A stretch of DNA of 64,000 bases from Ptychodera flava (lineage: Eukaryota > Hemichordata > Enteropneusta > Ptychoderidae): contig NC_091932.1 of NCBI RefSeq assembly GCF_041260155.1, positions 10,348,804 to 10,412,803 on the forward strand, given 5' to 3'. Both the position numbers and the translations under genes were made by a program. Under the pieces are notes generated by a model. The model saw only the letters and a program-made list of their open reading frames with translations. It did no database searches and was not told the origin of the DNA. Every line of letters starts with the position of its first letter. Position 1 is the stretch's first letter. This document shows, piece by piece, positions 3,748 through 64,000 of this stretch.

Positions 3748-6700
3748 GCATACATATTCTATGTGCATGGTTGTAACTGTGGATGTATATTTTGTCCATG
3801 TAGATACAGTCAAACAATGGAAGTGAGAGGTACCTTCTGTACATCAATGCCTATCAGAGAGGCGGTCCAAATTGTCAATATAATCATTTCTTCGATGCAC
3901 TGACGTATTGCGTCATGGAAAATCGCTCTTTGGTTGACGCGGTTCGATTCTTTGCTCACCATTTGTTCAACGATGGAACGATGACGAGGAGATTTCTGCA
4001 GGAAACATTCGATCTTGAAATCCTACGTCAGATCGTTGATATTGTGTCTCTGGAGAGATTCAAACGAGAATGCAATAACACTGTGGACATTGTGCTCACC
4101 ACTTTTAGTAAGAAACACAACAAACATGAGAACGCGTATAATATGTCGGCAAAAATGTACTTAAAAGCGTTTGGGATTCATATACCGGGCTTCGAAACGC
4201 TGCCCACGACAGAAAATCAAACAAAACAGAGGATCGTTGACGCATCGTCCATGAAATGTGTCGGAGTATGGGTCTTGCGCCCTGATGCATACCAGCGAAT
4301 TCCAACTACAGTAAATGATTTGACAAGGAAACATGTTGTGAATTCTCCTAACATCAGAGCTACGGCAGAATGGATAGCGAATAAAACCATGGAGGGAGAG
4401 CCATACATCACAATGCATTGGCGAAGCAAAGCAAGAGAAAGGTAAAGAATTTTGTCCATTCTGAACACTGGTATAGTATCACTTACTGTATTAATAAATA
4501 GAAGACGATTGGAACTAATATTATTGGATGGTGAAGTAAGGTCATTTTAATCAGCAAATGTAAGCTCATCTGCTTTTATTTTTAAGTAACACACATGTTT
4601 TTATGAGTAATTTGTTAAATTGCAACATTCAGCTCTATGGCACCTAACTCTTTTGAGAAAATTTGAAAAATGTGAAGATACAATTATATCCCAAATTAGT
4701 TCCAATCGTGTTATAGATACGGTCTGATCGACATGTGTTTACAAAGTGGAATATGACATCAAATCAATTCCAGCAATCGTTATCATTCAAGGAAAGTTAT
4801 TCACCAGGTCTTAGAAACAAACAAACAAAACAACAACAACAACAACAACAACAACATCAACAAGCACTGACAGAATCAATAGTGCAATCTCGAACCAATA
4901 AGTTAAATGGTGGTACCAGGTGTCCGGAATCGGTAAGCGTACTTTGACAAAGTGGAATTTTATGACGCCCATAATGGTCCACTGAGTATTTTGAGAAAAA
5001 ATGAGGGGGAAATTCCCGTACGGTACCAGTGTGGTCGGAGCCGTACTCAAATTGTCCATGAACGAATTCAATGTTACTTCAAAGTTTCTTCAAAATGTTT
5101 GTTTTCACTTTTACAATATGACATTCCGGCAAGAGAACAATTTATTAAATAGTATGTGGTCTTCGCAATGGGTGTGTATGGGATCATCAAGAAACGGTAC
5201 TTAAGTTTTCTATTATTTCCATCTGGCTAGTTGGTTTGTATCATGTACACGTGCTGTGCTTTCCAGTAGCATCTTGAGAAACTAATCGAGATGCACATTC
5301 GGCCGACGGCGATTTTCCTATCACGAAGAAGAATTATGGACAAAACTGAGCTCAGGGCTTGTCTTTAGCTCGTCTTTTTTTTCTGTATTTGGATCAAATA
5401 AACTAAAAAACAGAACTGAAGTTACAACAGTCGAAGAGACAACATGTTAAAATATCTTTCTGTTAAATAAAAACCCGCAAACTTCAATTATACAGTTTAT
5501 TTATCAAGAGAACAGCGAGGAGACACAAATGGAATAGATGTCGGCACTAATGTTGACATGAGCCTGATGAGGGAAACACGACTGCCTTCATCTAACGGAT
5601 TTTATGCTTGCAATTTACGTACGAAAAAAGAATTGTTGTCAATATTTCATGCATATCATTTTGTGATTTGTGCTGTGAGGGTGAAATAAATCTGAATAGT
5701 CTGTTCATAACGAAAGACAACACGTTTACGTTCTCTATGGTAACCCGAATATTACCTAAACAGATGATGCCATTTCAGACAGAAACTAATTAAAATATCA
5801 AAGCGTTAAGACGATCAGATGGATGTTATAATTTTGTTCCAAATCGTTTTCACACTATATGGTATGTGGTATTCCGATGTTGGGCAGATTTGATTAATAC
5901 ATCACAACTCAGTAAAAATGTTATCCCATATAGACAATCGTATGAGTTCAAAAGATCCCATTCAAACCGTTGTGACATCAGGTACGTCATGAAGTAATCC
6001 GTTGTGAAGCTATTAGGTGATTTTAGGTTGTACATCGCAGATAATTTTATTCTTATCGCACTCAGACTATCATATACGTATACGAAGGTGCACATGTGAC
6101 TATTTTCGTTTCAAATCATTTGAACACCAGGTACGCGATGAAGTGTGCCGGTGGGCGAATTCCAAAGCGAGGCAATTGTGACGTCATAGGAAGAGAGGTG
6201 ATCACGACGGACGGTGCAGCGGCTCCCGTTGCTAAAGCAGTTCGGGAATTACTGATGCAGTACAATGTAAGGTTCCTGTATGTGGCAACTCCTCCAGTCT
6301 CATCGGTATGTCAGTCTTCTTCAAAATAGAACAATGCTGTCGTTGCAACTATTAAAAACTGTAAACGTGGACGAAGAATTTAAATCAGTGAATTGTTGTA
6401 ACTTTTTAAAGCTATCGACCTGGTTTAGAACAATTACATAAGCTTATTCAAAACTATTATGCTTACGGTGACAGAGTCACCATTTTTGCGTTTCTTTCAA
6501 TATCGTGAAAGAAAAAAATACCATAAAAAACTACTATGGATACTACGGAAGCGTATTCGTGACATTTTTGTAAGAAAAAGAAAATTAAAAAATCTCGTAA
6601 TTACGAGTTTTGATTCTCGAAATTACGAGTTTTTGATTCTCGTTATTACGAATTTTAAAATCTCGTAATTACGATTTTTTTGATTCTCGTAATTACGAGT

Positions 6701-9700
6701 TTTTGATTCTCGTAATGACGAGATTTCAATTCTCTTGATTACTAGTTTCTGACTCTCTTAATTATGAGCCTTGATTTTACTGTATTATGAGACATAAACT
6801 ATAATAAATAGTCTTTCTATGGTGTTTGAGCTCTTTAGTGTGAACCTCTGCTCATACGTATTATTGATCATAATTCAACGAATACAAAGGTTAACGTGAA
6901 TCTTGACTTGATCAGGCGTAGTGAGCAGGTATAGTAAACTCGTTAATGAATAAATGAATGAATATACTTTGGGGTTGTTACATGGCTTACAATTGTAGAT
7001 ATTCAGTAACTTATCCAGCAGATCAAAAGTCACGCAAAGCATCATGCCAAGCATGGCCTATAGATTTTGTCTGTCCTGATAAACAATACATTAAGAGTTA
7101 AAGATGCTGCAATGCATAAGTATGCTATTATGCCAATACTTCACTCCTATAAACACCTATATTTGGGTCTTCTCTGACAAGCTGAAAAGCTCCGCTCTCA
7201 GGAGATAACACCGATATCACATGTGTCTGCCAAAGTGATGTTAACTTTTCACATTTAGCACAGACCGTCAGTTTTTTCATGTTGTGTCTACACTAGAAAT
7301 CATGATGAGAAACCAACATCTTCTGAAATATCCTACTGTATGATTTCTATGTGTCTGTCCGACATCCCCCTTCATATATGAAAAACATATCTAAAACAGC
7401 AGTAGGCCTTAACAAGGAAGTTGGAAAGATTTCTAAGCTTCATTGCTCTAAAAAATAAAGTATGTACATAGACAGATAAAGAGAAGTATGACTTGTGTAT
7501 GATGAGTGTCTTTGCATTGTATCCTCTCAACATAAAATAACACTACACGAAAAATGTGTATTATCTGTTTGATGAACTAATTGAAATTTACATAAAATCT
7601 CTTTCAAGAACATAAGAAAATGGCAAATAAAAGCGAAAAAGTGATGATGAAGTGATGATTTTTAAATGGAAATGAAAAGAACACGAATACGCACGAATAC
7701 ACTTCAGTAGGATACACATGTTGATAAGATACGTGGATACAATTTTAGTGGATGGTTGTCAAGATTAGGGTAAAATATAGCTCACTTTACACATCGGCAA
7801 GGTGTACGATGTGGCAGAACAGTTGTCGGCTCACCATCATCAAATATTTAGTCTAATATTTCTGGCAGATCCCAAAACTGAATGATACTTTCAAGACGCT
7901 GATTAATCATAGATCAATATATAACATAATTCTTAACTTCTACATACTGAAATTGACAAAATCCAAAATAAAACAAAACTTTTGACCTTTTAATTATTCA
8001 AGACGCTGAAAGTTTTGTTGCACAAGAATATTGTGCTTACGTTTCCCACTTAATGTAGAATTCACCTCGGGGACAGATTTCGGACTCAAACTTTTACAAT
8101 TTTTTTCTGATCTACCACTTGTGGGGGTTCATTTTAAAGCTCTTGGTGTAAGAAAATTTTCTACCATCTTATTTTTTCGAAAATTTTATTTTTTCCTCCA
8201 TAGAGTTAACACAGGGACGGTGGCCAGTTTGAATTTCAAATATCAATAAATCTTGGGTAATTTGTTTCTCTAGTGCCAAGAAAATTTGAGCGGTGACCCC
8301 CGATTTTTTTTGTTTTGCATTAAGCAAGAGAATGGTTGAAATATTCCTTGAGGAAAGTTAGAGCAAATGTTTAACTATTTCACTTTCGAGGGGCATACTA
8401 CCTTAAATCTGAACACCCATGCATCTGATTTGAATACCAATGCATTTGTACCGATAATATCCGTGGCTACTAGCTAGAACAGAGCTAGAAAGAGTGACAT
8501 TATGCATGTTTCATCCCAATTAATTCATTATTTGTTTTTCAAGAATATCGTGGAGGTGCTTCGAAATGAAGGTATTCGTAACGTCTTCTCCGCCGAAAAC
8601 ATAACAGTAGATGAGAACCCGTCTATCGCTAGAATGAAGTTGGACAACTACACATGGTCCTTGGTCGAAGAACAAATTTGTATCAGTAAGTTAGCGGTAA
8701 TATGGCGCATTGACATTTTTAGTTCACAACTATATTAGTCATTCTAAAACCTGTAACATGCAAATTTTCATCGATTTCGTTTTACATTAGATGAAAAGAA
8801 AGGTGAAAAGAGTGCGGCAGGCAGAGGTGTTTACAAATTTAAACAAATTTGAAATACTTTGCCGATCCAATAAATTCAAATGGTGACCCCTGGGATTTTA
8901 ATAATGTGATCGGTTTACTTTTCTGTAAACAAAGAATGAGCAAAGTTTAGCCTAAAGATTGGCCGTGTCTTCAATTTTTTCGTATCCACGGCGCCTGTCA
9001 TGGGTTACAAGGAAATTAAAACATGGTTTCCAGAACCTCTACCACTTTTGAAGTTTCCTTATCTTACTGGTATCAAGCCTTATAGAAGGGTAGGCTTTAT
9101 CGAGTTTTCACGTTATTAGCTTAAGCTTGTATTTTTGTTTTAATAAAAGTTTCGTGAAGAGAAATTTTTCAGAGACGTGTTTGTAAAAAGATGATTTCAT
9201 TGTAATCGAATGCCTATTCCATAAATAACAGATTTTACTACACTCTATGCTTCATGACGGAAGACTTTGGATACATGGTGGAGTCGTACGCGTTGACTCG
9301 TATTGACATTGACATCACTAAATTATACCTGCACTTATTTCCATTCAGACCAACAAATGCATCCAGCGATATCTTTTACACTTATTTATACTAGGTTTAG
9401 GATATAAATATTTATTTTGTGTGGAAATACATTGATTTCTGATGACACTTTATCCATGTTTGACATTCATGTACCTCAAATCGTGCACTATATATTTTTA
9501 GATACCATATTCATTCATCTGCAGATTCTAAGATATTCATCGGACAGCCTGGAAGTACCTGGTCGTCTGCTGTGGTGAATGCACGGAAAGTTGCTGCCAA
9601 CCGAACCTCAATACCAATAAATCGGCTAGCCACAACCGTCATGGCTGTGCAAGGCATTCTGGTGAATCAAGATGAATATGAAATGTCCGGATTGAAGCAG

Positions 9701-22215: not shown

Positions 22216-24206
22216 CAGTGTTTCAGCCAGCGTGCGGCATTGCGACATTTGACGCAATTTTTTTGTTTTGTCCCGATAAAATAACCGTTGTGGGTCACCA
22301 TGACGCAATCTGAGCAGGCCATATTTTTGTGGCTATTGAATTTTTAGACAGTGCCTCCTGGGCAGAAAACTACAGCTAACAATAAAATGTTGTAAGATGT
22401 TGAAACAGTTTACCCTCCTTCCTACAAAGTTGCAATGTATTGAAACAGTTTACTCTCCTTTCTACAAAGTTACAAATTCCCTGGTACGTAAAACAAACAT
22501 TGTTGCTGTTCGATACTACTAGTACAATACATCACCGGTGTACAACGTCCGTGAATACACTGACAGTCTGTGAGGCTTGGTTTTGCATAGATGAGTGCCG
22601 CGTACCGGTCGTCCTTGAGTTCAAGTTTTACCTACATTGCTTGCATCAAAATTTGGCCTGCAGCTACTCAGTTTGATAGTAAAAACCATAATTTCTACGG
22701 AAACTTTCACAATCAGAGTCATTGTACAAGTGAAAAGGAGACAAAACTCAGGTTTTCTGAAAGGTCAAATCTGGGTCATTTCACGTGATGTCATGAATGA
22801 AGTACACAATTATGGTTCAAAAGAAACCACCTAGGGAGGGCAATAGGTACAATCTTATGTAAAAGAGAAATTTCTTGGTGCCTTCCAATTTACATGGCAT
22901 TTAGCTTGACTGTCAGTTTTAAATTCTACTTTATTAAGAGTCATGGCAAATGGAGATTGTCAACAGTACTTGCAGTAAGCATATTCATTTTCAAATCTTC
23001 ACATTTGAGAGCTGCAATTTTGCATGGTAACTTAACATCAAAGCAACAATTCAAAAGTAGAGCTATTAAAATTGTCCATTTGGCATATTTCAAACTGCTA
23101 TAACTTATACAAGAAATGGTGTGATTCTGAATGATTTTAATATTTCTGCAGATTCTACCACTTTCATGATATAATAATGAACATCACTAGACATTTCTTG
23201 ATGATATCAAAATATAAATGAAAATATTTCTGGGCTAAAATGTTATCATAATCTTTGAAACAATGATTACTCTAAAACATTGGAAATTAAATGAACAATA
23301 TCATTGTGTATTGTTTTACAGGATTTGGGTTTGGCCAAACCATTTTTGTCTCAAGAAAAATACTTATGCTTAAGATGCTATTGAGCCTGCTTGATCACAA
23401 CTATGACACAACACCAGGGCCTTAAACACCACAATAATTGTATCTACATTGCCACTATGCTACCCAATGCTTTCTTCTGCATGGAAAATTTTATCTGTGT
23501 GGCTCACAAAATTTTCGTCATGACTTACAAACTGCATAAATTTGCCACATTAGGAGCTTGTATCAAGTTGTCATTCTGTGAACACTGACAGAATGCTACA
23601 GAAATATACACTTCACATTGCCACCTAATTTTATTTCTGGTGGTAAAAGTTTACCACCAGAAATGAAAAAAATATACCTATCACTTTAATGTCATAAAAA
23701 CACAGATAATTAATGCAATAAAAGCTGAACAAATATTTCTTTAATGTAAAATACAAAACATCTTGATTTGAAAAATGAAGAACTCCTGAATACCAAGAAA
23801 GTTGTTGCCACACTTGAGATCATAAACTGCCTAAAATTTGTTCAAAGTGGCTACAAGATTTTTGATTTGGCTAATGAGTTGGCTAATCATCTTGGTGACT
23901 TAGGGGGAGCCCTACAGTTTATGTGCATACCACGTGGTAGCAGTAAACTTAATGATACTGCAAGTTTCATGTTGGCACAATTTTGCACAACACCATTGGC
24001 CTACTATATATACTCACCGTTAATGCACTCACCTGACTTGCCTATTGAACACCAAATACAGTACCAGGTCATAATGACACATAATGACACTGTACTGTTG
24101 TTTTATTGAAATACATTACATGTCCCCAAAAATTTAATTTGTCCCCCATTCAGAACTACCATGGGTCACTGTGTCCCCATGCAAGCAAAAGCTGGCTGAA
24201 ACACTG
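22216..24206. mobile_element. 1,991-bp TIR element with 6-bp target duplication, inserted in a LINE
   Basis: The ends are CAGTGTTTCAGCCAGC and its exact inverse. ATACCA flanks both sides (22210-22215 and 24207-24212), and removing one copy restores the LINE frame through PHTRLIAKLEAHG. TIRs starting CAGTG are hAT-like, but a 6-bp duplication is shorter than the usual 8. No transposase was recognised, so it is probably non-autonomous. The interior has two roughly 42-bp direct copies around 22390-22480 (GAAACAGTTTAC...CTACAAAGTT). Confidence 0.85.
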
Positions 24207-25304
24207 ATACCAGGCTGATAGCCAAACTTGAAGCACATGGCATTGTTGGTAAAGTAAAGACATGGATACAAAAGTGGTTGAACGGTAGATTACAGAGAAC
24301 AGTATTAAATGGTTCATCATCAACATGGTCATCCGTCACTAGTGGTGTCCCACAGGGATCTGTGCTTGGACCAGTCTTATTTTTGATTTATATAAATGAC
24401 ATCGATGATGTAGTGAAGTCTCATATTCTTAAGTTTGCAGATGACACTAAACTTGGCAGAATTGTGAAATCAATGGAGGACCGGGATAAATTCCAGGAGG
24501 ATCTTAATAACCTTGAAGTTTGGTCAAAGGACTGGCAGATGTCTTTCAATGTGGATAAGTGCAAGGTCATGCATGTGGGATCAACCAATCCGCAATATAA
24601 TTATACCATGAACAACATAGCTCTTACTCCAGTTGAGGAAGAAAAAGACTTGGGTGTACTAATCCATAATTCCATGAAGACAAGTAAACATTGTGCAGAA
24701 GCAGTAAAGAAGGCGAACAGAGCTCTTGGTTTTATCAAAAGGAATATAAAGTACAAAACAAAATTCAATATTATACGGTTATACAAGTCACTGGTTAGAC
24801 CCCACATTGAATATGCAGTACAGTTTTGGAACCCACATTATATTAAGGATATCACATTAGTTGAAAAGGTACAGAGACGAGCAACAAAATTAATACCGGA
24901 ACTTTGCCATCTTAGCTATGAAGAGAGGCTGAAAGAATTGAAATTGACAACTTTGGAGGAAAGAAGAATGAGAGGAGACCTGATTCAAGTTTTCAGGATT
25001 ATCAAAGGAATTGACAGAGTTTCACCATACAATTTATTCACATTTAGTCAGCATCACAGGACAAGAGGACACACACTTAAACTTGCCAAATCAAGAGTTA
25101 GACTGGACTGCAGGAAATACTTCTTCACTCAGCGGATTGTCTCTGCATGGAACAATTACCAGCATATATTATTGAAGCTGAAACAGTACTGGACTTCAAA
25201 ATAAGACTTGACAGTTACCATGGACATTGAGGGATTATATAAGCCAAGAGGCTTCCTTCCCTGTCTGGCCATGATTTATGAATCATGGCAATCAAGGTAA
25301 ATCA
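24207..25304 (+). mobile_element. CR1/L2-like LINE, 3' piece of reverse transcriptase and tail
   Basis: A 308-residue open frame holds the RT palm (SGVPQGSVLGPVLFLIYIND, ILKFADDTKLG) and the C-terminal VQRRATKLIPEL region. Near 25160 a single frameshift moves the typical ending (IIEAETVLDFKIRLDSY) to another frame. The 3' end has tandem ATCAAGGTAA repeats, as in CR1/L2 relatives. With the 5' piece at 22130 it forms one insertion. Confidence 0.92.
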
Positions 25305-32700: not shown

Positions 32701-33780
32701 AAAGATAAGATAAGATAAAACTTTATTAAATCCCTAAAAGGGCAATTTGAATGCCTGCTTGACGAACGATACAAAAATAAATTCAAAGTCAAAAAGCACA
32801 AAAAACAAGACCATGAAAGCGAAAACAGAGACAAAATGAACATGGCCGTTAATTTCCACGATTAAAATTTGCGTTAAAAAGACTGATAGCTTGTGGAATA
32901 AAAGAGTTTGCGTAACGCTGGGTACGGGCTACCGGTGGCCTAAGTCTGCCACTTCTAACAATGCGTTTATCGACCAAGTCGTGATGTAGAGGATGAGTCT
33001 CATCGGTCAGAGTTAGTGTTAATTTCTTATCAAGTCGGTCATGGTAGATTAGGTCAACTTGTCGCTGTGAATTTCCGATGATTGTTTCCACCTTCTTTAT
33101 GATTTTGTCAAGCCTAGCTTTCTCTTGCTTTGAGATGTTACGACCCCAACAGACAATACAATAAGTTAAAACACTGCTGATAACTGCATTGTAAAATGCA
33201 GACAGGATCTCTTTCCTTACATTAAAAGACCTTAATTTTTGAAGACAATACATACTGGAATTAAGCTTTTTCAACATTGCTTCAACATGAAAATGCCAGC
33301 ATAATATACTATCAATAGTGATACCCAAGTACTCATAAGTCACAACTCTGCAAACATTTTCACCTTTTATAACAACTGGGTCAGGCTCAATTGGCTGCCT
33401 ACGAAAATCAATTAACATTTCCTTCGTCTTATCAACATTCAAAACCAAGTAATTTCTATCACAATAGTTGACAAAGCGTTCAATTTCAAGTAAGTAACTT
33501 GAGTAGTCATCATTGCTAATCAAACCCACCATGGCAGAGTCATCTGCAAACTTAACTAAAGGACACGTCATTTCTGTTGCTCGGCAATCAGCAGTATACA
33601 AGGTAAAAAGAAAGGGAGCAAGCACAGTACCCTGTGGTGCCCCTGTACTTGAATATGTAATTCCTGATGACACAGAACCCAATCTTACATACTGTGCCCG
33701 ATTGGTAAGGTAATTTGTTACCCATGATATCATTGCACTTGGAATTTCCATTGAAAATTGTGAGAAAATTTTCCATTAAT
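32700..33780 (-). mobile_element. 5'-truncated LINE with intact C-terminal RT frame
   Basis: The minus-strand frame 33751-32849 (300 aa) contains SSTGAPQGTVLAPFLFTLYT, LVKFADDSAMVGLI, NVDKTKEMLIDFRRQP and YEYLGITIDS, a non-LTR reverse transcriptase of the jockey/L2 superclade; the exact clade is unresolved. The frame is uninterrupted, so the copy is fairly young. The 3' end (32700-32720 on +) has a tandem TTATC tail. It is a different lineage from the LINE at 24 kb. Confidence 0.9.
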
Positions 33781-49500: not shown

Positions 49501-50170
49501 ATACTACTGTATGCGTGTACCATATATTGGGGATCTTCAAATATTGAAACTTTACTATCAGTGATTTGAAATGCTACACTATGAATAACAATACTTAATT
49601 CAAATTAGAATAAACATTTTATCAGATAATGTGGTTATCGTGGTGAGCGATATTTTTCGGGTGCAGTAAATGGACATGCAACTATGCATTACATTTACAA
49701 CCAACAGTAGCACCAGCATATGGTAATTCAATGACTGGAACATGTGGAGAAAGGGAATGGGGTGAAACTGACAGTGATATAGTGGTTTACAGCAGTATCA
49801 ATACCAGTGACAGTTTGTTCGCTAGGTCTACGATCGAGCAAACTACAGTCACAATTTGTGCCATTACACGGGGAAAGAAATTATGCCGGATTTTGAGTTT
49901 CCATTGATATTTATCACTTTCAAGGATACCACACAACCACTGAACCGGTCTTTGGCACTTCCTGTTTGGCCAACTAAGTAGTTTACATAATTGTTCCGCA
50001 CACGTTATGTGTTAACACTACCGCAACAGCGATCATAACGATTACCTGGTTGAATGAAGTTTGAAACAAATTAAGAATACATGACGGAAGAAAATATAAC
50101 AAATACGTACGTTATTGTTGTCTTTAGGGCGGAGATCCTTCAGTACTCGCCGGGTCCTCGGACTCGCCAT
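37541..50170 (-). CDS. ARFGAP1: ADP-ribosylation factor GTPase-activating protein 1
   Basis: Twelve minus-strand exons in coding order: 50170-50111, 48994-48885, 47288-47117, 46537-46287, 45848-45780, 45310-45196, 43321-43265, 42701-42669, 42195-42079, 41107-40968, 38914-38705, 37691-37541. Phases close to 494 aa. MASPRTRRVLKDLRPKD starts as in human. The ArfGAP zinc finger is intact (C22, C25, C42, C45) with the catalytic arginine finger R50 in CSGKHRSLGVH. GGRYTGFGNTPDPP precedes an ALPS-type curvature-sensing stretch, about residues 250-289 (LDSAMASLSAGWSTFALG, GASRFAAATKEG), rich in Ser/Gly/Ala. The C-terminal part has tryptophan motifs among acidic residues (WNWDDTDW, GWNDAWED, WDEDAW), like the coatomer-binding motifs of the family. 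The enzyme stimulates GTP hydrolysis on ARF1 at Golgi membranes and helps COPI uncoating. Exons 7-9 are very small. A 30-bp in-frame candidate cassette exon lies at 40104-40133. Confidence 0.95.
39697..39985 (+). mobile_element. LINE 3' relic
   Basis: The frame LVVPKPFTMFNGRAFAVYG ... FKSKLKTILFKQFYHLH (39697-39849) is the usual C-terminus of invertebrate non-LTR elements, with a small internal deletion. It is followed by a TGTAAAGTGCTTTGGAA tail, typical of such 3' UTRs. It sits in an ARFGAP1 intron, antisense to it. Confidence 0.7.
40104..40133 (-). other. Possible ARFGAP1 in-frame microexon
   Basis: On the minus strand a 30-nt segment is bounded by CCTAG and GTAAGTG. It would enter and leave in phase 2, matching exons 10 and 11, and would add VAILEKPGFP. 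No similarity to a known ARFGAP1 exon was recognised and the upstream pyrimidine tract is weak, so it is only a candidate cassette exon. Confidence 0.3.
41108..45195 (-). other. ARFGAP1 middle introns
   Basis: Apart from the small exons at 42079-42195, 42669-42701 and 43265-43321, these introns are AT-rich with no recognisable element. Confidence 0.5.
48995..50110 (-). other. ARFGAP1 intron 1
   Basis: About 1.1 kb. No exon or element is recognised. It ends at a GTACGTATT donor just inside the start exon. Confidence 0.55.
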
Positions 50171-50755
50171 CCTAGAACTTTGTCGGCTCCTTTGACGCGT
50201 AAACTTCCGATAATGAAAACGTTAGACGATACAAATGGAATTAACTTGAAAAACTTGACTGTAGAGTGTCCTTTGGATGAATGCAGCGGTTATAATTACA
50301 AATTGTTTGCTTCGATCTGAGGGAGATGATGTGTCACTTGTGTCAATGACGTTTAGATACTGTCGCCATCTTTAATTTCTACCAAACTTGCTTAGAAATA
50401 GCAATACGGCCGCTTAAAATGATGCAAATGCAGAGCTCATTGTTCAAAAGAGGCTTTCATGGATAAAAAACAGAGGGATGAAATTTTCAAGAAAGAAAAA
50501 TCGCGTATTTATCAATTCGTGCCGCTCCAGGCAATAAATCACATGAATATCAACTTCTTTACAACAATTATGAAGACCACTTAGGAAAATGTTATTTCTT
50601 TCACCGGAAATACGTCATCACAGGTCAACTGGAAGAGCAACTTTCAAGTCGTGTGTGGATATCACCGGCGTCTTCGCTGATAAGTCGATCTGTAGACCTC
50701 TTCCGAGACGCACTGAGCGAACAGTCATAATGTTTACTAGCTAACAACAATCAAA
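50171..50755. promoter_or_regulatory. Bidirectional promoter region of ARFGAP1 and TAF2
   Basis: The two start codons point away from each other across 585 bp. The segment has an ETS-like ACCGGAAAT at 50603-50611 directly abutting TACGTCATCA (CRE/ATF-like) at 50611-50620. No TATA box is obvious near the expected starts. A shared housekeeping promoter is inferred from the spacing and motifs. Confidence 0.65.
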
Positions 50756-53700
50756 ATGTCCAAAGTCACTAAGAAGGGAGACAAAGGATTCGAGACTCCT
50801 CGACCTTTTAGATTATAAGTATCGATTTTGTGATTGTTTTTGTTTATTTCTTCAATCTGCTTTGCTGATGAATTTATGGAGGTAGTAGCTCCATTAGATA
50901 TTTTCGTACTCCGTACAGGGTCTGTGTAACCACGTGATTGCAGATCATTTTTCGCCTTGTATTACAGAAGTTATTTGAATAACCGTTAATGTAGTTTCAT
51001 TGAAAGGATGAAAATACAGAATTGGCTTACATGTAAGACTAAGTGTGCAATCATTGATACAAGGGTCAGTCAAGTGTAACAAGGCAAGTTGCAAGCAGTG
51101 GTTGAAACTCTGTAATTTTGAGAATATACTTGAGAATTTACAACATCACCTCAAGATATTTAATCCTTTAAGGTCTGTAGTTTTTTACCTATATATCTTT
51201 CGTCCTATATGCCCAGAAGTGAATAATTTTGTCAATATTGACAAGCAGAATACTGATATTTCAACATATTCGTCGAGTTGGATTGATAACAGTAGGAATG
51301 GGGTAAGAGAGAGAGCCTTCTCCCATCTACCTCCATGCAGTAGGTGATTAATACATTGAATTGCAGTATTCAAGTAAAACGTTACACCTGACTCTTTAAT
51401 GATGTAGCTTGCTAATGAAAAGGCACCTTTCATAAGATTTACATAATAATTCCTTTGCACAAGTTAGCAGTACCAGTACCTAACCATTGTTTTCCTTTTT
51501 CTCTTTACGAGTCATCAGATACTGTGTATCACAGGTGTAAATTTCCAGAGGAAGTCAATTATAGTAAGTACTCATTGAGATAAAAAATATTGCTTTATTT
51601 TTGTTTTTGCAAATTCACTTTTAGCAATTTTCAAAATAATATATCATCCAGAATATTAGAACCATAATTGTTGTACAACTTTTTTTGGTGTTGGTAATAT
51701 GACTTGCCTTTCCACCGAAAGATTCAGATGAAAAAGTAAAGCATGAAAAGGATTGTCAAGTTTGCTGTTCATATTTTCTCAATAGTAAAAACAGTACTAC
51801 TGTCTATTCTCTAAAAGTTTTGATGATTACATGTACATGTTTTTATTACCATGTGTTTTAGTTGTGCACATGAAAGTATATTGCTCAATGCAAATGCTCT
51901 ATTCTATCCTGTATGTTGAGAATTTGCTAGGTATTTGACTGATCTTGTACCTTTGTACTGTGTACTAGGGAAAGTAGTTTTTGTTATGTAGCATAAGTAA
52001 CATGCAAAACAAAGGAGATATCTAAGCTTGACTAGGCAAGTTTTACTGCTGACGAGATTATATTTGCCATATGGGACTGCTGTTGAATTTAAACATTTCT
52101 AGCACATACTCTTACTACATGTATAATAAATTTGTTTAGTATACCTTTGTTCCTCGTAATGATTAGGTAGACTGAAATATATCTTTTAGCTACTTCATTT
52201 GGAATTTTAGTCCACCAATTCATACAGAAATTTGATTGTTGCAATGAAATAGATTAGTAAACATAATCTTTCTTATCATTTTCCAGGGTTACGTGGAGCT
52301 TCATCTTATTCCAAGCAAACCAAATCTCAACAAAATCAAGTTGAACAGCAAACAGTGTAATATCCTTTCACTCAGTAGTGACTAGTCTCAGCCGATATTA
52401 AATGAAATGTGACATTGCTTGGATAAGTATGGATGTACAAACCATAGTTTCAGTGCAAGTGTGGCACTAGCAGTACATCCATCTTCTGCAAAGATTGATC
52501 AATATTCATTAGTCTTTCACCGCAATGAAATACACTTGGTTGATATACATGTGTATTCATCTATGTGGATTGTCTGATCTTGTAACATATATTATTGGTA
52601 TTCAAGGAGCTCTCACCATACATGTATATTAGAGTGACTTTGCTTGAAAGCATTGGTATCTGTAATTGTATAATTCAGTTTTACATTCATTAAGTTAAGA
52701 TTCAAATAGCACTCGAAAATTAACCATGATAGCTCAGTGCCTCGTTATACCACTTTGTTCATGCTGAAGATTAAATTGACAATTCATAAAAATCAAACAA
52801 ATTATGGAAAATTGAGACATTCATGAATGAAGGTAGTATTCATTCCTGCAAATTATCAGACTTCCATGAAATATTTTCATTCTTTCAATTGAATGAAAAG
52901 CAGTTCCGTGACTTACAATACACCGTAGTACAGATATACGCATGTAACTGTAGCCGTTGTATCATTGAATCATGATTTAGTCAGAGTGATCACTGAGTAT
53001 ACTCTCTGTTTTCCACTAAAGGAAAGGCAAGTAGTGTATTTGGCTTTATAAAGATTTACCAAATGTAACACTTTTATGAAGGTTGGTAACTTTCAAATAT
53101 GAGTGTTTCAGTTTCACATAAATACTGCAAGTTATACACCCTTGACTTTAGATTTGAACGGATCTACAGAGTGTGCATCAATGATATTTGGGAAGCTTCA
53201 TTTCTGTACAATGATCCAACTCTAGCAATCTGTCAGAGTGATGCTAAACAGTAAGTATTCAAATCAATGTTCTGAATAGATCATTTGTCAAAGAAGTGCA
53301 TGTCATACAGATGAATAGTAAAATGGATGAGAAGAACCAACTTCGTAGAAATGAACTTGGCATGCTGTATTGTAGTACAGTATTTGGTTGCAGTGAAAAT
53401 CATGAAGTAGTTGAAATCCATGAAGGCATATACCAGTGCATGTGGAAAGTACTTAACTTTGCAATGGTTTCTAAACTCTTTACAGCTTCTTATTGGTTGT
53501 GTAGCATGACTGTATCCTTCTGTCTTTACATTCAATCTCACATTTGTAACAATTGGGCTTAGCATGGCCATTAAGCAAGTTGGCATATGGCAATGCTCAG
53601 CTTTACCACTACTTTAGGCCAGATAAATGAGATTTGTTTGTGATCAAGGAAAGCTGCAGCATTGTGAATATTGCTCCTTTACTCTTCTCAAAATCTGTCA

Positions 53701-56700
53701 TGTTTACTCCGAAGCAGCATACTGATAAACATAAATGAGCTGTTGCACATCTTGCTGAAAATCAATAATCAGACATGTTATCAATATGATAATTTGAAAA
53801 AAGGTGGGAACATATTTGAAAAAAGTGCTCTGGAAAAAAGAAATAAATTTGAAAACTTTTGTGTTTCTTCCGCAGACGTAATTTAAATTTCTTTTCAACA
53901 TGTCACTCTGCTGCGGTGAGTTCAGTGGATGCAGACAGTGGCAATGGAGAGCTGACTATCAGAATCCCACAGGAAGCAATGCATCTTGTTCAAGGTAAGA
54001 GGAGTCTACAGCATTATGATGTAATAATGTGTACATGAAACACTGATGTGTACAGTGTTTAAATCTTCAAGCAAATGCAAGCTTAAACGTTTCTATTCCA
54101 AAATGACATAACTAACATACATAACAATGCATATTGTACTGCTATGAGTCTGAGTCAATTGCCTGGTTGGGAATGAGTTGTAATCTAAAGGAATGGAGAG
54201 AGATATCGATGCATTCATGGTTTAGTGCCACTCCATTTTGCTCTATCCTGGATGTGTTGTTTTTTTCAGACATGAAACCACTGAGAGTTAGCATAGAATT
54301 TTCACTGGAAACACCACAGGGTGGGATTCAGTTTGTGGTCCCTGAATTGGATGGCACTATGGCAGAGGTGAGTTCATGCTTAGATCATTTCATCAAGTCA
54401 ATTACATTATTTTTCAGTCATAGCTAATATATTTGTGACAAAACTATGTACATATAGCAGATGTGGCACAAATTAAATGTCATAACAGTTAAAGGGCACC
54501 ACTTTTGATGATTTTTTTCACAATATTTGTTTTGTATATCAATTTCAAGTTCCTGTTCTTTGCCCAAAAGCATGTTTAAACGCTTACTGTTTGTCAACAC
54601 AGTGTATGTACAAGCAAAATCTAGTGATTTTGTTTACATTTAAATTCTAACCCAAACCAGAATTAGCTTGTCAACAATAACAATAGTAATCTACACATGT
54701 ACGTGCTTAGTTGAGTAGTTACTTTGTATCTCAATAGGCTTCAATTGCCAGTAGGACAAGAAACTGCAGAGGACATTAACCCTTGACTACCTTGAACGCC
54801 GGATATATCCGGCGCCATATTGAATTACCATATACCTTTAGTGCCGGAAATATCCGGCACAGTTAAATAGGCGTATTTGCTTCATTTTTGTCCCTAAAAA
54901 TCCCATAATTTTGGCGTCGGCACGCAGCGCGACTAAGATTGATGTATACCGATCTGGCCTGAATTTGATTGCGCCCCCCTTACGTCCGAGTATGGCCAAA
55001 ATCCGGAAGCAAATGTCGTGACCCATGACCTCGACCCTGAAAGGTCAGGCTGATCACAGAAGCGTCGCGCTGATTGTTTACAGTTTTCAGAAGTACGGAC
55101 GATCGCGAAGATTTTTATGGTTTGTTTTTTTTAATGAAATGAAATGTTTATTTATTGAAAACAAATGATTAATATGTAAATATGTTCTATTAACAGCAAT
55201 ATTCTGTGAATGAAACTGGAGGAAATATAATTTTTTACTATAACCCAGTGAAATTTTATAGCAGCCATATTGTCAATATGACTGGTCACATGACTGGTCA
55301 TGTGATTGGTCATGTGATATGTTGTTCCCTAAAATGTATTTTTAAATATTGTGAATTATTTTTTGATAAATCATAACCATTTTAGATGCATGTTTCTGCA
55401 AGGAAGACATAAAGCAGGTGTTTACAAATAAAATGTGTTGATTTTCAAATACAGAATTATGTCAGATGCTGATGTTTGTGGTTCATTTACTCTGCCTTTT
55501 GTGAGAAAAATCTTAAACAGGTACATCTATAAATAAAGTAAAGGGTAGTTATTATCACATATATGTAAAGACAAAGCCCTGAAAATTGCAAGTGTATTCT
55601 AATTGCGTCATTTTATGGATTCAAAACACGTCCTGATGCTTCAAATATTCATATTCTTTGCCAACTCTGGTCATATGTGTCATGTGACCAGTCACATGAC
55701 CTGGAAATACAAAACTTATGAAAAAGTGGGAAATTTCATGCTGATTCAGAAAATATATGGTTTATTGGTACTTACTTAAATTTTACTCTAAGCAGTGTTC
55801 ATTCAATGACCACACCCAAGATTTTATCAATATTTACATAAGGGGCCTGGTATATAGGAATACATCGGCCTGGTAGTCAAGGGGTTAAAAACAAAAATAC
55901 TCAAAAAAATCATCAAGTTACACCCGTTAGTGATGGTTTGACAGTGAAGCCATGTAATTTTCTCTCAGTAAAAGTGTCTTTTTGGGTGAAGTGTTCTGCT
56001 GTTTACAGTTTGCTTCATTTCTACATCCTTACTTCTGCAAACATCAAAATAACAGTGTAATACTTTTAATGAAAAAGACAGAGTTATGCAGCAGATCAGC
56101 AATTTGATGGTATGAAGTTTTGATCTCATCTGAAACCCATCTTGTTTTCACAGAGATCAGCTCACATGTTCACCTATGGCTATGAGAACTCAGCCAGACT
56201 CTGGTTTCCCTGCATTGACTCATACTCAGAGCCCTGTACCTGGAAGTTAGAATTCACTGTGGATGCCTCCATGACAGCTGTGTCATGTGGAGATCTCATT
56301 GAGACTGTCTACACACCAGACATGAGAAAGAAGACTTTCCACTATGTACTGAACATACCAACAGCAGCACCAAACATTGCACTGGCTGTGGGGTAAGTCA
56401 TCAATACAGTGACTATAATAGTTTGTTAATGAAGTAACCCAATTTCAACCAACATTATTACAATGTCTGGAATCTCTGAAAGTGAGAGGAGAGCTTACAT
56501 TTAATGTACAAACCTTATATCCACTTTGCTCGTTGCATAAAGGTTAGTTGAAAATGCTTCATGCTCGCTCCGTCAGAACATTTACTCTAACACAAAGGCA
56601 TGGACTTTGTAATGTTTGGCAACCAAACTTCTATCGATGTGAAAGAAAGACAGATAACAAGACACAGACAAATGATATCAGAGATAATGTTAAATCTCAG

Positions 56701-59700
56701 AAGAAATAGTATGGTAATATTTATGTCTTCAGGAGAGTTGTTTTGGTCACAAATATTCCCGTCAAATAAAATAGATTTTATTTTTCAAATGAGTCTGTAT
56801 TTTGGAATAAAACTGTAATCAAAGTTGATATATTCTGTGTCAATGGTAAATTTGGCAATGATAGGTTTTTTGGCAAAACTCTAAGAATTTTCACTTTTAA
56901 GTTAACTTTTGAAGCAGTGTAACTTGAGTATTGTGTTAGAATACCATACAATAGAATGGGCAGTTGGGCCTTTGTGAGTCTCTCCACTTACTACATAAAT
57001 TGTAAATAATAACTTCTTAACATAAATTCTTACAGAAAAAGAATCAAAAGAGACTCATTCTCCCATTCTCCTTTTCTCCTTCAGCCCATTTGAGATATTT
57101 GTAGATCCATATATGAATGAGGTGACTCATTTCTGCCTGCCACAGTTGTTACCAGTGTTAAAGCACAGCACAGACAGACTCCATCAGGTAATGACATATC
57201 TCTTTGTTTGCAGTATCAGTGCAACCATCTTCAATCTTGCCAAAGTAGTTGGTGATAGCTACATGAGCTTCCCTAAGAATATTGCAGCTGCAAAAAAGTT
57301 TCATTTTTGTCCTGAGACCTGTTGAATTCAAATTCAAAATCTAGCAACCTTTGATAAAGGTTTCATCCATCTAAGCTTATACAATATATTAGCAATTTTA
57401 TTAATTAATAATGAAAATCAATGAGAGTTCAATGCTATAGATACTCCACTATAGTAGGCTTATTAGTTTTGTACTAGCATTGATTATCAAACAAGGGACT
57501 GAAACTACATTGAAGACAAAATAGGAAAAAATGTACAAGAATACAGTAGGAGAGAGTGACATTGCATCATAGTGACGTATATTCAGTGAGATCAATGTGT
57601 GGTTGAAAAAAATGATCTGTGGATTATTATCCAACTAGTAATAGTGTAATGTTGGATAAAATGGAGTATATGAAGAAGTGGCAAATTTCCATAAAAACAA
57701 TTAGTGTGTTCTGCAATGTCAAGTGTAAAGCATACCATAGAGCATTCTGCTACTGGGTAATGAAAACATCCTACAACTGGTTGTGAACTTTTGGGGTGTG
57801 TATATTTTTCAAAATGTTTAGAGTCAAGTCTGCACTTGGTAGACTGGATTTATAGTCAGGATTGGTTTTTTGTCATCACAGGCATTTGAATTCTATGAAG
57901 AAGTTCTTGGTACTCGATACCCATACAGCTGTTACAAACAAGTTTTCATTGACTGTGCTTACATAGAAGCTGCAGCCTATGCATCTATGACAATATTCAG
58001 GTATTTTTATCTTATCGTATCTCACAGCACTTGTTTCTTTTTCAACCAAACATTTTACAAGACAACACATTCTTTCAACTTGGCTGGAGCCTGTACTCAA
58101 GTTCATGTCAGTCATCAAAATCAAGTCCCCACAAATCTTTATCTCAGTTTTTTGCTAATTTTGGAATACTCTATGTGAAAAGTTGGGGCATTACTGAAAG
58201 GTTTCAGCCAAGGATGTTGATATACTGGTAGATGTGTCTGGCAAGGAAGCAAAACCCTAGGGTTTCTGTTGAAATAATGATTTAACAAAAGGGGGAAAGT
58301 TTGTGGCAAGGAAGTCATTTCTCTACTTCCTATACACAATGTTATTGATTTCCACCATAAAGACAATAACCAATACAGATTAAAACCACTCTGTCTCAAT
58401 CACAGTTACTTTCCCCTCATATTTTTTCAGCACTAACATCTTGCACTCCAGTCATGTCATTGACCAGACTTTCACATCACGTCGTCTGATGGCACACGCT
58501 GTCGCCCAGCAATTCTTTGGTAGTTACATATGCATGCAGTCATGGCCAGATGCCTGGCTTATCAAAGGTATTGCTGAATATCTGAATGGTCTCTATATCA
58601 AGAAGAAGTTTGGTAACAATGAATACAGGCACATGATCAGCAAGGTAAGAAATTTAATTAGACATTGGGTTATTCACAACATGGTAATGTATTGATGGCA
58701 TGGGTATCTAGGTATGACGTATTAGACGAGGCAGAGCCCAAATGTAGTTACATTTGCATATAACCATATTATTGTACACCTTTTATATCAAAACATGAAA
58801 TGATGAGGTACTCTTTTGTAAAAAATTTGGCACTTTGTGTTTTGTACCTACAAGCAGATGGATAAGCATGAGAACTGGGAGTGATATTGCTACAGATATG
58901 ATTTTCATACTACAAAGAATAGACAAAATGCACACACACACACACACATACTCTTTTCACAGCTCCTTGGCTCCTGGACATCTAAATTTGCATATGTAGA
59001 ATTTTACACTCTCAGCGCGTATGTTGTACAAAATGTATGGTAGCGTATTGTATGATTTGAATGCCATAGGTTACAACAATAAACCTGTAATGATGCTAGA
59101 AAAGTAGAACACTAGGATCATGAATATCTCTGTTTCTTATCATCATCACCAGGGCGTTTTCCTTTCTTGTTTTTCAAAGTTGCCTCAAGAATTCAAATTG
59201 TACTGGCATGGAGGATCAACCCATCATTCAATAGGAAATGCCAGAAATTTAACATACATATTATGTACTTCATCTGTGATAAGTAGCCTTTGTGTATAGT
59301 GAGAAAAAAGAAGACTTGTAAATAACACGTTTGTAAACTTGTAAACAAATCAAAAGATGTCAGTTTTCACATGTGAACAGATATGTGTTGAAGGAATTGA
59401 GACGATGAAGAAAAGAATGGTGTCAAGTCTCCTTCGGCAAAATGTTAGGAAATGTTTGAAACTCTCAGTTTTGAAGTGCAGACTGCAATAAGAAGTTTAT
59501 AAATGAATAAACATTATTTTTCTGTAGATTCTGAAAAGAGTTTGCAATGCAGAGGAAGAATACGGAGGATTGATTCTCTATCCAAATGCCAGTGGCAACA
59601 AGACAGAATCCACCAGCTCCAATGGTGGAAAGTTACATTTTCCGAGGAAACACTCACATACAACATCTTGGAAGTATGCCAAGATGATTCGACTGAAGGC

Positions 59701-62700
59701 ACACATTGTTATTAGATTGATTGCTCTCAATATTGGACAACATCTGCTATTACAGGTAAACTTACTCATATGTCAACATATCAGAAAGAGTCTCAGTTTT
59801 TTCCTGCTATACAATCTTTCCACCCCAAAGTCTCTGTGAGTGGAGCCAATCACACCATTAACAATCACCAGGGTGACAACAAATTGGATAATGTATTTGT
59901 TTTTGTGGAGTTGATGGCTGAACATTTTAAGTTTGCAAAACAGCCTGTCAGAAATATCATAATGATACTTTCTCTTTCTGTACAAACATGTTTTTATCCC
60001 GTGTAGTTGATAAAACCATCATAAACCGTTTACTCCATCTGTCGTAACCTTACTGTGTGTAATTGTACATCCACAATGAGTAAGCTATAGGGATGTAACA
60101 AATAGTGAAAGCTTTGATATTTGAATTTTGTGATTAATGAATTTCATCGTTTTCTCCATCTTCAGGCACTGAATAAATTGTTGTCACTGGCATCTGCAGC
60201 AGCTCAGCAGAAGTTTCAAAGTAACAGTTGGTCAAATATGCTGCTATCTACAAGTGGGGTAAGTAGGTTGTGTTGTGTTATTCCTCAAGGATGCAGTTCC
60301 GGTCTACCCGCCTCTTCTAGTTTATGGTCAATAAAATAATAATTTACATGTAAAAGAGTTCAGCTTCTGTATGATGATACAGTCCATCTGCTTGGTATTG
60401 AAGTCTTTACAATACACAATTCCAACATTTCGATATCAAGTTTACATCTTATAAGAAAGCTCTTTTCTGTGTCTTTGTCTTTTTTCAGTTCCTCAAGTCA
60501 GTGGCTACTGTTTCTGGGAAGGACCTTAAGACACTTCTTGACCAGTGGGTTTATCAAGGTGGATGTGTACGTTTCCATGGAAACTTCATCTTCAACAGGA
60601 AGAGGAACATAGTTGAACTAGAACTCAAACAAGATCTTTCAAGCAGTGGTGTTATGAAATATGTGGTATGTCACGTCAACAACACAGTTTTACTTACACC
60701 ATTCCATAGCAGAAAATGTCTGTAAATATCACAGTCATTGTTGTAATTACAGTGCTAATAGTAATACACAGTAGCTTTTGGTTGTGCAGACTTTTCTTGA
60801 CATCTGCAATCACACTAAATCTTCACCAGCAAAATTCTAAGATGTACCTGTTTTATCATAGGATGTAAAAACAGATATTTGCACATATCGGTAGAAGGCA
60901 TGCAGCCCTACATTTGTAGTCATAGAATGTCAACATAATCTTCAAAGAGTCACCCCTATTCAATGCAGCGTACAATTTGCAAATTCTTTCAATCTCCTAT
61001 GATATTGCTATGCTTTCTTTGATGCAGGGACCTCTACAAGTCACAATCCAAGAATTGGATGGTTCATTTAACCATAATGTGCAAATAGAAGAAAACAACA
61101 CCAAACATGAAATGACATGTCATTCCAAGAGTAGAAGGTAATCATACATGTTGTCTGTAACATCCATATGTCTTGAAAGTCATTAGTCAAGAAAGGTCAT
61201 GTGACAAAATAATTGCCAATGGACTGAGGACAAGTGACATATCAGAATAACTGAACCTGTTCAATGGAAGATGGCTGAGGATGGTATTTTTTGCTGCAGT
61301 GTGAAAAAAACTGATACAATGATATGCACTAGCCGTACGCTTATACAATTGTATGTCATAAAATAAGAATTTCTAATTCCTTTATTATCTAAAATCACAG
61401 GAGCAACTTCAAGAAAGATTGTAGCCTCTAGTTAATTAAGCCAGTTGGTTATAAAATCATTTCTCTGTGTGCAAATTCAAATGTAAAATCAGACCTGAAT
61501 GTAAAATCACATCATTTTGATTTCAGACATAAAAAGAAGAAAATACCATTAGCTAATGGTGAGGAAGTAGACATGGATCTCAGTGCTATGGAGTAAGTAG
61601 ACATGTTAAAATATTCATAAAGGATTGATGCAAAATATAATTACTAGTGGCTCTGCTGATGATGATGTCAGTATTTAAGAGTGTCTTTTTGGCTTCCATT
61701 TTGTCCTTCTTTGAAAAAATACTCACAGTTTGTAATGCAGTGTGGGGAGCTGTCATCTTTGATTCTGAAATTCCCAACAAACCTCCCTGTGTTGCCCTGT
61801 CAATCATTTTTACACAAAAAAGCATAAAATGGTGAGACAGGAGAAGTTCACCTATTTAAAATATTATGAAAATGTCCATTTTACAATGGTTCACAGTGAT
61901 TTATATCTACCTTCAACACATTTATTCACAGCATGTATAATGCTTGTGTTGCATTTTTTTTTAAATATATGTATAGTAATATGGACAAAATAATTTGTGT
62001 TCATGTACATTTCAGTGCTGATTCTCCAGTACTATGGATTCGTATTGATCCAGAGATGACTACAATAAGACGTGTTACTTTTGAACAGCCTGATTATCAA
62101 TGGCAATACCAACTGAAATATGAAAGAGACGTGGTGGCTCAGTGTGAGGTATGTCAGTTTTCAACACCCTGTTTATCTACAGCTATGTTGATGGGTTCTC
62201 CACCAGTTACTGCTATCAGGTTTGACAGCTTGTCCAGTGTTCATCTAGACTGGGGGATGGGGGATTCCCCTCCCCCTGTTGACATGTTAGCACCCCCTAG
62301 TAATTTGTCAAGAGGGGACCACCCTCCCATGAAATGGTGCCAGTAACACCTAAGTTAGAGATACAAGTAGAACAAATGAACTGGTGAAATCCCCCCCCCC
62401 CCCCCCAATATTTCTGGTAAAGGGGGAAAATCCCCCCTGTTGATGCCATCCTGGCTGAAACACTGCTTGTCGTAACTTTGATTAAAAGCTTCAAAGTGTT
62501 CCAACCAGTAACAACAATTCAGAGTTTTAAAGCTCACAAGGATTTGTCAGGTTTTAAAGAAGTTAAATACTTCATACAACCAGACATGATGTCTGTATGC
62601 TGGCACTTGCTGATTAAAACAAAGAAAAAATATAAATTATTTCCCACCTTCATGAATGCAAAGTGAATGTCATAATATACATCCAGCAGTATGGAGTTAA

Positions 62701-62954
62701 ACTTTGACAACTGATGTGAATTTTTTTGTTTTGACAGGTACATTATAAATTTAAGTTATTTAGGAGTGCCTGTTTGATAATCATACAAAATTGACCACAG
62801 GTATCTGATAATATTTGCATATTCTATATTCCAGGCCATAATAGCTCTGGAAAATTTTCCCAGTCTAGCAACAAGAACTGTTCTGTCAGATATCTTGGAA
62901 TATGAACAGTGTTTTTACAAAGTTAGGATGCAAGCAGCACACTGCCTGGCAAAG
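50756..62954 (+). CDS. TAF2: Transcription initiation factor TFIID subunit 2 (TAF2), 5' part; runs off the window
   Basis: Seventeen exons: 50756-50814, 51509-51563, 52287-52359, 53160-53250, 53876-53994, 54270-54367, 56154-56392, 57085-57187, 57882-58000, 58431-58644, 59528-59755, 60166-60258, 60489-60665, 61028-61137, 61527-61592, 62016-62148, 62835-62954, giving 699 aa so far; human TAF2 is about 1,200, so the rest lies to the right. [12 protein letters not shown] begins as in human (GDKGFESPRP). The body is an M1-aminopeptidase fold: [36 protein letters not shown], and the site where peptidases have HExxH reads HAVAQQFFG (H341-Q345), so zinc chemistry is lost, as in human. [19 protein letters not shown] and WIRIDPEM follow. 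TAF2 binds core promoter DNA with TAF1 in TFIID. Two introns look like AT-AC introns (see the two intron entries). The 5' neighbour ARFGAP1 is divergent, 585 bp away. Confidence 0.96.
50815..51508 (+). other. TAF2: TAF2 intron 1, candidate U2-type AT-AC intron
   Basis: Exon 1 reads ...RPFR then TTATAA, so any GT donor at 50819 would include an in-frame stop. Ending the exon at 50814 (AGA TT) starts the intron with ATAAGTATCG. Ending the intron at the AC of CTCTTTAC (51507-51508) lets the codon resume as TT|G and gives [14 protein letters not shown], the same length as human RPYK-L-THQVVCINN. ATAAGT is the known 5' signal of U2-type AT-AC introns. A CCTAAC branch-like site and a pyrimidine tract precede the 3' end. 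An assembly error at the donor is the main alternative. Confidence 0.65.
52360..53159 (+). other. TAF2: TAF2 intron 3, U12-type AT-AC intron
   Basis: The intron begins ATATCCTTT, the consensus U12 AT-AC donor. It ends with CCTTGACT (53150-53157 region), a near-consensus U12 branch site, about 14 nt before a terminal AC at 53158-53159. Splicing here joins TGT A | GG ATC TAC to give [13 protein letters not shown], exactly collinear with human SKQCRIYRVRIND. Conventional GT or AG choices nearby break phase or add a residue. Confidence 0.88.
54780..55884. mobile_element. Non-autonomous piggyBac-like element
   Basis: TTAA at 54776-54779 and 55885-55888 flanks ends CCCTTGACTACC and GGTAGTCAAGGGG, matching the piggyBac pattern of TTAA duplication and CCC...GGG termini. 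The 5' sub-terminal part has palindromes around GCCGGATATATCCGGC. No transposase frame was found. It sits in TAF2 intron 6. Confidence 0.85.
56393..58430 (+). other. TAF2 introns 7-9
   Basis: AT-rich introns around exons 57085-57187 and 57882-58000. No mobile element is recognised. Confidence 0.5.
58645..59527 (+). other. TAF2 intron 10 with a short (CA)n
   Basis: 883 bp; the only structure is a CA repeat at about 58930-58950. Confidence 0.6.
62235..62465. mobile_element. 231-bp relative of the 22-kb TIR element
   Basis: The right end CTGGCTGAAACACTG matches the 22-kb element and the left end starts CAGTGTT. CTTGTC at 62229-62234 and 62466-62471 is a 6-bp target duplication. The interior is C/G-tract rich. 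It sits in TAF2 intron 16. Confidence 0.75.
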
Positions 62955-63059: not shown

Positions 63060-64000
63060 TCAGATTTTTTAGTCCCCGCGGATGAAGTCCGGCAGGGACT
63101 TATAGATTGGGTCCCGTCCGTCCGTCCGTCAGTCCGCAGCCATTTCTCAGACACTGCTACACAAATTTTGTTCAAACTTGACACAAAGGCATAGCACTAT
63201 GACCTACAGATGCAAATCGATTTATTTTGCGATACGATCCAATATGGCCGCAAGGTGGCCATATTTTTGCGATTTTTCATGTCTTTGAACCATAACTCAA
63301 ACATCCTTGAACCGATTCTGTTCAAACTTGGCACAAAGGCATAACACTATGGCCTACATATGCATGTTGAATTATATTGCGATACAATCCAATATGGGCA
63401 TGAGGCGGCCATTTTGTTTGCAATTTTTCATGTCTTTGAACCATAACTCAAACATCCTTGAACAGATTCTTTCAAACTTGGCACAAAGGCATAACACTAT
63501 GGCCAACATATGCCTCTCAAATTATGTTGCGATACAATCCAATATGGGCGTGAGACGGCCATTTTGTTTGCGATTTTTCATGTCTTTGAACCATAACTCA
63601 AACATTCTTGAACCGATTCTGTTCAAACTTGGCACAAAGGCATAACACTATGGCCTACATATGCATGTAGAATTATATTGCGATACAATCCAAAAGGGCG
63701 TGAGACGGCCATTTTGTTTGCGATTTTTCATGTCTTTGAACCATAACTCAAACATCCTTGAACCGATTCTGTTCAAACTTGGCACAAAGGCATAACACTA
63801 TGGCCTACATATGCATGTTGCATTATATTGCGATACGATCCAATATGGGCATGAGGCGGCCATTTTGTTGCAATTTTTTCATGTCTTTGAACCATAACTC
63901 AAACATCCCTGAACCAATGTTGTTCAGACATGGTACAAAGGCAAAGCACTATGGCATACATATGCATGTATCAATTAAGCTTGCGATAGGATCCAATATG
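63060..64000. repeat. Tandem array with about 150-bp unit, continuing past the edge
   Basis: The anchor TTCAAACTTGGCACAAAGG recurs at 63171, 63321, 63471, 63622, 63772 and (degraded) 63922, so the period is 150-151 bp. Each unit also carries TTGCGATACAATCCAATATG, GGCGGCCATTTTG and CATGTCTTTGAACCATAACT. A CCGTCCGTCCGTC run at 63115 leads into the array. It lies in a TAF2 intron. Confidence 0.92.

Follow-up and report, generated by a model that had tools for sequence, protein, structure and literature searches.

An apparent U2-type AT-AC intron in the TAF2 gene of the hemichordate Ptychodera flava and a U12-like AT-AC intron two introns downstream

Described AT-AC introns and their relation to the TAF2 locus

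The closest described counterpart of the intron discussed here is intron 1 of human TAF2, which is designated a major (U2-type) AT-AC intron and was tested by RT-PCR according to the legend of Fig. 5E in PMC8280824; in the same source, human introns of the major AT-AC class showed no response to CENATAC depletion. Other members of the class are found in sodium-channel genes, all with G at +5, while A at +4 or T at +6 is thought to aid U2 recognition, and one of them, SCN4A intron 21, is stated to need the major spliceosome (PMC2831892). These introns share the AT-AC termini and the G at +5 with TAF2 intron 1 of Ptychodera flava, although the gene family is unrelated. Four AT-AC (U2) introns, each with RNA-seq junction support (4/4), are listed for Drosophila melanogaster in Table 3 of PMC4528330; they belong to the same class and lie within coding sequence. 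U12-type AT-AC introns have the same termini as intron 1 but carry the donor ATATCCTT and a CCTTRAC branch, both of which occur in intron 3 of the P. flava gene and are absent in intron 1. Furthermore, U12 introns are described as having no distinct pyrimidine tract and an optimum branch distance of 11-13 nt (PMC3584512).

The stretch analyzed (the window) comprises 64,000 nucleotides of P. flava contig NC_091932.1 (positions 10,348,804 to 10,412,803). Its AT-AC intron is the first coding intron of TAF2, and it agrees with the human one in gene, ordinal position, termini and class, a likeness that rests on the published naming in the part of PMC8280824 cited above. Since intron 1 of the same gene is named a U2-type AT-AC intron in human, the P. 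flava intron is very probably its orthologue, identity of position being deduced from the gene and the ordinal number that the source gives. In this respect the idea of a U2-type AT-AC intron, which had been put forward in the sequence-only reading of this DNA, is supported and is not new in kind, the human case being already in print. PMC8280824 was the only literature match for TAF2 combined with AT-AC terms.

Gene model and reading frame at intron 1

TAF2, subunit 2 of TFIID, is encoded on the + strand from the ATG at 50756, with exons 1-17 spanning 50756..62954 and the gene continuing beyond the window end. The joined N-terminal 390 residues gave an E-value of 2.5e-184 against the PDB chain of human TAF2 (66% identity, 254/384 aligned residues, window residues 5-389), and 303 residues further along the protein matched human TAF2 with E 1.5e-128. 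The model contains 16 complete introns, 14 of them GT-AG and two (introns 1 and 3) AT-AC. For exon 7, searches of viral_contigs (viruses, 13 pattern matches) and genome_contigs (bacteria and archaea, 93 pattern matches) yielded no confirmed relative, and Rfam produced no match in the window at gathering scores.

Several other features were observed in the window. An ARFGAP1-like gene is arranged head-to-head with TAF2 (50168-50756), with about 585 bases between the ATGs; the resemblance to ARFGAP1 lies in MASPRTRRVLKDLRPKDNN, encoded by ORF 50042-50221 of the - strand. TAF2 intron 6 holds nested inverted repeats (54505-55916) placed 1.1-1.4 kb apart, the outer one of 29 nt and 86% identity (54505-54533/55888-55916) and the inner one of 12 nt and 100% identity (CCCTTGACTACC, 54780-54791/55872-55883), which might represent the termini of a mobile element. 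In TAF2 intron 17 a tandem array made up of 5.5 copies of a 150-base unit with 89% matches (alternatively read with a 301-base period) occupies 63161-64000 and runs past the window end. Two ORFs encode reverse transcriptase, 24200-25204 on the + strand (Pfam RVT_1, E 1.5e-17) and 32849-33775 on the - strand (E 3.9e-9), and are probably retroelement remains. Finally, the + strand ORF 3804-4445 matches PF10250, the GDP-fucose protein O-fucosyltransferase family, scoring 32.0 bits (E 1.3e-7) where the cut-off is 31.5, and a 23-base unit containing TCTCGTAATTACGAG is repeated at 6589-6768.

The coding part of TAF2 exon 1 (50756-50814) can be aligned with the human protein from window residue 5 onward and ends in CCT TTT AGA TT, that is, with two bases of a Leu codon that is completed by the beginning of exon 2 (51509-51563). 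As exon 1 matches the human N-terminus, there is little need to invoke an alternative first exon. Beyond 50814 the exon 1 frame meets an in-frame TAA at 50816-50818, which is immediately followed by a GT (50819-50820), as the sequence-only reading had pointed out in stating that the sole GT near the end of exon 1 is placed after a stop; the only other GTs between the ATG and this one are at 50758 and 50765, and GC is absent from that interval.

All junctions with a donor first base at 50786-50934 and an exon 2 start at 51251-51513 were enumerated, and those in frame and free of stops were kept. Donors before 50786 were omitted because the conserved GDKGFE block would be lost, and exon 2 starts before 51468 are closed by a stop in the exon 2 frame at 51465-51467. 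The 511 pairs kept include six AT-AC, three AT-AG and four GA-AG, and no GT-AC. Canonical junctions were sought in the same set and rejected, neither GT-AG nor GC-AG occurring in frame among the 511 pairs. Eleven registers leave the initial 18 residues intact and still place HQ after 21 residues, and two of them give PRPFRLS: AT-AC (50815/51509) and the adjacent TA-CG, which encodes the same protein. The product aligns with human TAF2 gaplessly over the junction (PRPFRL-SHQILC/PRPYKL-THQVVC), and equal spacing is seen in the Taf2 chain 6hqa, a yeast protein (FKIAHQ; a stretch weak by itself, 12.4 bits, i-Evalue 0.62). A rough, post hoc estimate based on window frequencies puts the chance of ATAAGT together with YYYAC in one of the 11 registers at 2.3e-5.

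The intron delimited in this way (50815..51508, + strand) has 694 nt and is in phase 2; it begins with ATAAGTATCG (50815..50824) and its last bases, ending at 51508, are TTTCTCTTTAC. The AT and AC termini are set by the reading frame, which confirms an apparent AT-AC intron. The earlier claim that an AT-AC cut restores both the phase and the length of the human protein held, and the limits then proposed (50810-51520) were correct within about a dozen bases. In the predicted mRNA CCTTTTAGATT would be joined to GAGTCATCAG.

Two other ways of reading the same bases have to be considered. One assumes that 50815, which is read here from a single assembly, should be G, its A being due to faulty sequencing or assembly, and that the true intron is GT-AG with its AG ending at 51511. 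This acceptor is indeed in frame with a donor at 50815 and the product would read PRPFRFHQIL; nevertheless, it drops one residue of the spacing kept in human TAF2 and, in a weak alignment, in 6hqa, and requires a GAG acceptor, which is an unfavoured form. An error at the donor also leaves unexplained both the matching AC end and the AT-AC intron 1 reported in human, and we consider it very unlikely. The other assumes an odd pair different from AT-AC. The pair AT-AG (50815/51512) is in frame and drops, again, one residue from the conserved spacing, while TA-CG, shifted rightward by a single base relative to AT-AC, yields the identical protein but fits no splice consensus, and we know of no precedent for TA-CG introns; use of either pair appears highly improbable. 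The three junctions are predicted to differ in their codons, TTG AGT CAT for AT-AC, TTT CAT for AT-AG and TTA AGT CAT for TA-CG.

Spliceosome class of introns 1 and 3

The donor of intron 1, ATAAGTAT, has A at +4, G at +5 and T at +6 and is of the U1 type. Positions +2 to +8 can form seven contiguous pairs with the U1 5' end (in its commonly given form), with a duplex energy of -4.5 kcal/mol; each of the 14 GT-AG introns gives a stronger duplex (-5.3 to -11.9) and intron 3 a weaker one (-1.4). A putative branch site, CTAAC, is located at 51480..51484. Its A (51483) lies 25 nt upstream of the final base of the intron, without an AG in the interval, and the site is followed by a pyrimidine tract and acceptor (CTTTTTCTCTTTAC, 51485..51508) in which 18 of 20 bases are pyrimidines, the tract ending 3 bases before the intron end. 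This arrangement fits U2 geometry. A 5/5 match to CTRAY is not rare in the gene, being found in 5 of the 16 TAF2 introns, and the tract scores of the 16 introns overlap widely (0.55-0.95), so that pyrimidine fraction does not discriminate between the classes. Regarding U12 motifs, intron 1 contains neither an RTATCCTT donor nor, near its end, a U12-like branch that includes an A.

That intron 1 might nonetheless be removed by the minor spliceosome deserves attention, considering that most AT-AC introns are U12-type (PMC7072748) and that intron 3 of the very same gene resembles a U12-type AT-AC intron. However, ATAAGTAT differs from RTATCCTT at +4, +5, +6 and +7, and the rule quoted from PMC2846911 accepts T at either one of the two C positions, which would allow the change at +6 alone and not those at +4, +5 and +7. 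The best 9-mer against the U12 branch consensus, TTCCTTTTT, agrees at 6/9 positions and lacks the branch A, a score that about 45% of random windows reach. In addition, a branch candidate at 25 nt combined with a strong tract is unlike the U12 introns portrayed in PMC3584512, and the legend in PMC8280824 assigns the human counterpart to the major class. Taken together, a U12-type intron 1 is most improbable.

The U1-like donor, the branch and tract and the lack of U12 motifs identify intron 1 as U2-type by sequence, in agreement with the class assigned to it in the sequence-only reading. We estimate at roughly 0.9 the probability that 50815-51508 is a U2-type AT-AC intron, in all likelihood orthologous to intron 1 of human TAF2, a published member of the class. 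Both splicing at this junction and the spliceosome responsible for it are inferred from the DNA. In the mechanism that can be proposed, U1 would pair with +2 to +8 of AUAAGUAU, U2 and U2AF would make use of the branch CUAAC and of the tract that follows it, a non-canonical contact between the first A and the terminal C would replace the G-G contact of GT-AG introns, and the exons would be joined at UUUAC|G.

The second AT-AC intron, which was absent from the finding of the sequence-only reading, is intron 3 (52360-53159, + strand, 800 nt, phase 1), U12-type by sequence. It separates exon 3 (52287..52359, + strand), which ends in IKLNSKQC plus the first base of an Arg codon, from exon 4 (53160..53250, + strand). 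Its donor is ATATCCTTTC and its acceptor TTTGAAC, and a match to RTATCCTT, ATATCCTTT, begins at 52360 and occurs nowhere else on the window's + strand. A candidate branch, CCTTGAC, occupies 53140-53146, which puts the branch A at a distance of 14 nt from the terminal AC; as background, CCTTRAC occurred within 6-26 nt upstream in 156 of 200,000 random ends. The tract of intron 3 (13/20 pyrimidines) is equalled or undercut by several GT-AG introns of TAF2. The U11 duplex does not discriminate either, with -4.9 for intron 3 and values of <=-4.0 in 8/14 and <=-5.1 in 6/14 of the GT-AG introns.

Enumeration for intron 3 gave 1311 in-frame pairs, including eight GT-AG, one GC-AG and nine AT-AC. The AT-AC pair 52360/53160 produces SKQCRIYRV, identical to human, and the same protein results from an AA-AA register; the predicted exon 3-exon 4 junction joins CAGTGTA to GGATCTAC. 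Of the GT-AG pairs, the one closest to it in product length (52355/53152, donor GTGTAA) was rejected, as it gives SKQFERIYRV against the human SKQCR. Intron 3 looks like a typical U12-type AT-AC intron in its sequence marks. With intron 1 U2-type and intron 3 U12-type by sequence, both classes of AT-AC intron appear to be represented in TAF2. A U12-type TAF2 intron was not named in the literature searched, among the matches listed, supplements and most subscription papers lying outside that search.

Origin and meaning of the TAF2 AT-AC introns

Since the human intron has already been reported as of the same kind, intron 1 of P. flava is most likely an old inherited oddity and not a new phenomenon. 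An ancient trait present since the common ancestor with vertebrates is the simplest view, because both ends must change together for GT-AG to arise. In PMC2831892, Lin et al. (2010) proposed that an AT-AC U12 intron may become a U2-type AT-AC intron by a C-to-G change at +5 followed by A at +4 or T at +6, and U2-type AT-AC introns would be trapped, since both termini must change at once. Intron 1 displays A+4, G+5 and T+6, all three bases of that path. All 87 U2-type introns in the conversion set of the same source have GT-AG termini, and the AT-AC path thus remains a proposal.

The occurrence of introns 1 and 3 in one gene, together with the class reported for the human intron, fits, as judged from their sequences, the idea of a trapped U12 descendant, although it points to neither the direction nor the age of such a change. 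Based on this evidence it can be hypothesized, tentatively and with considerable doubt, that TAF2 has held a U2-type intron 1 and a U12-type intron 3 since before the vertebrate split, and that intron 1 is the relic of a U12-to-U2 conversion with AT-AC termini throughout, locked in place over hundreds of millions of years by the need for a joint change of both ends. If true, TAF2 would be a case beyond the sodium channels for testing the AT-AC trap. Sodium-channel genes with U2-type AT-AC introns also contain U12-type introns.

U2-type AT-AC introns are very rare and readily overlooked by gene predictors. The added value of the present locus resides in the probable depth of conservation and in the coexistence, within a single gene, with an AT-AC intron of apparent U12 type. 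The presence of the intron in TAF2 of human and of a distant animal argues that U2-type AT-AC introns can be stable rather than passing errors, and the U12-type AT-AC intron two introns downstream may offer a natural side-by-side test of how AT-AC termini are read by two spliceosomes, as well as of the U12-to-U2 path.
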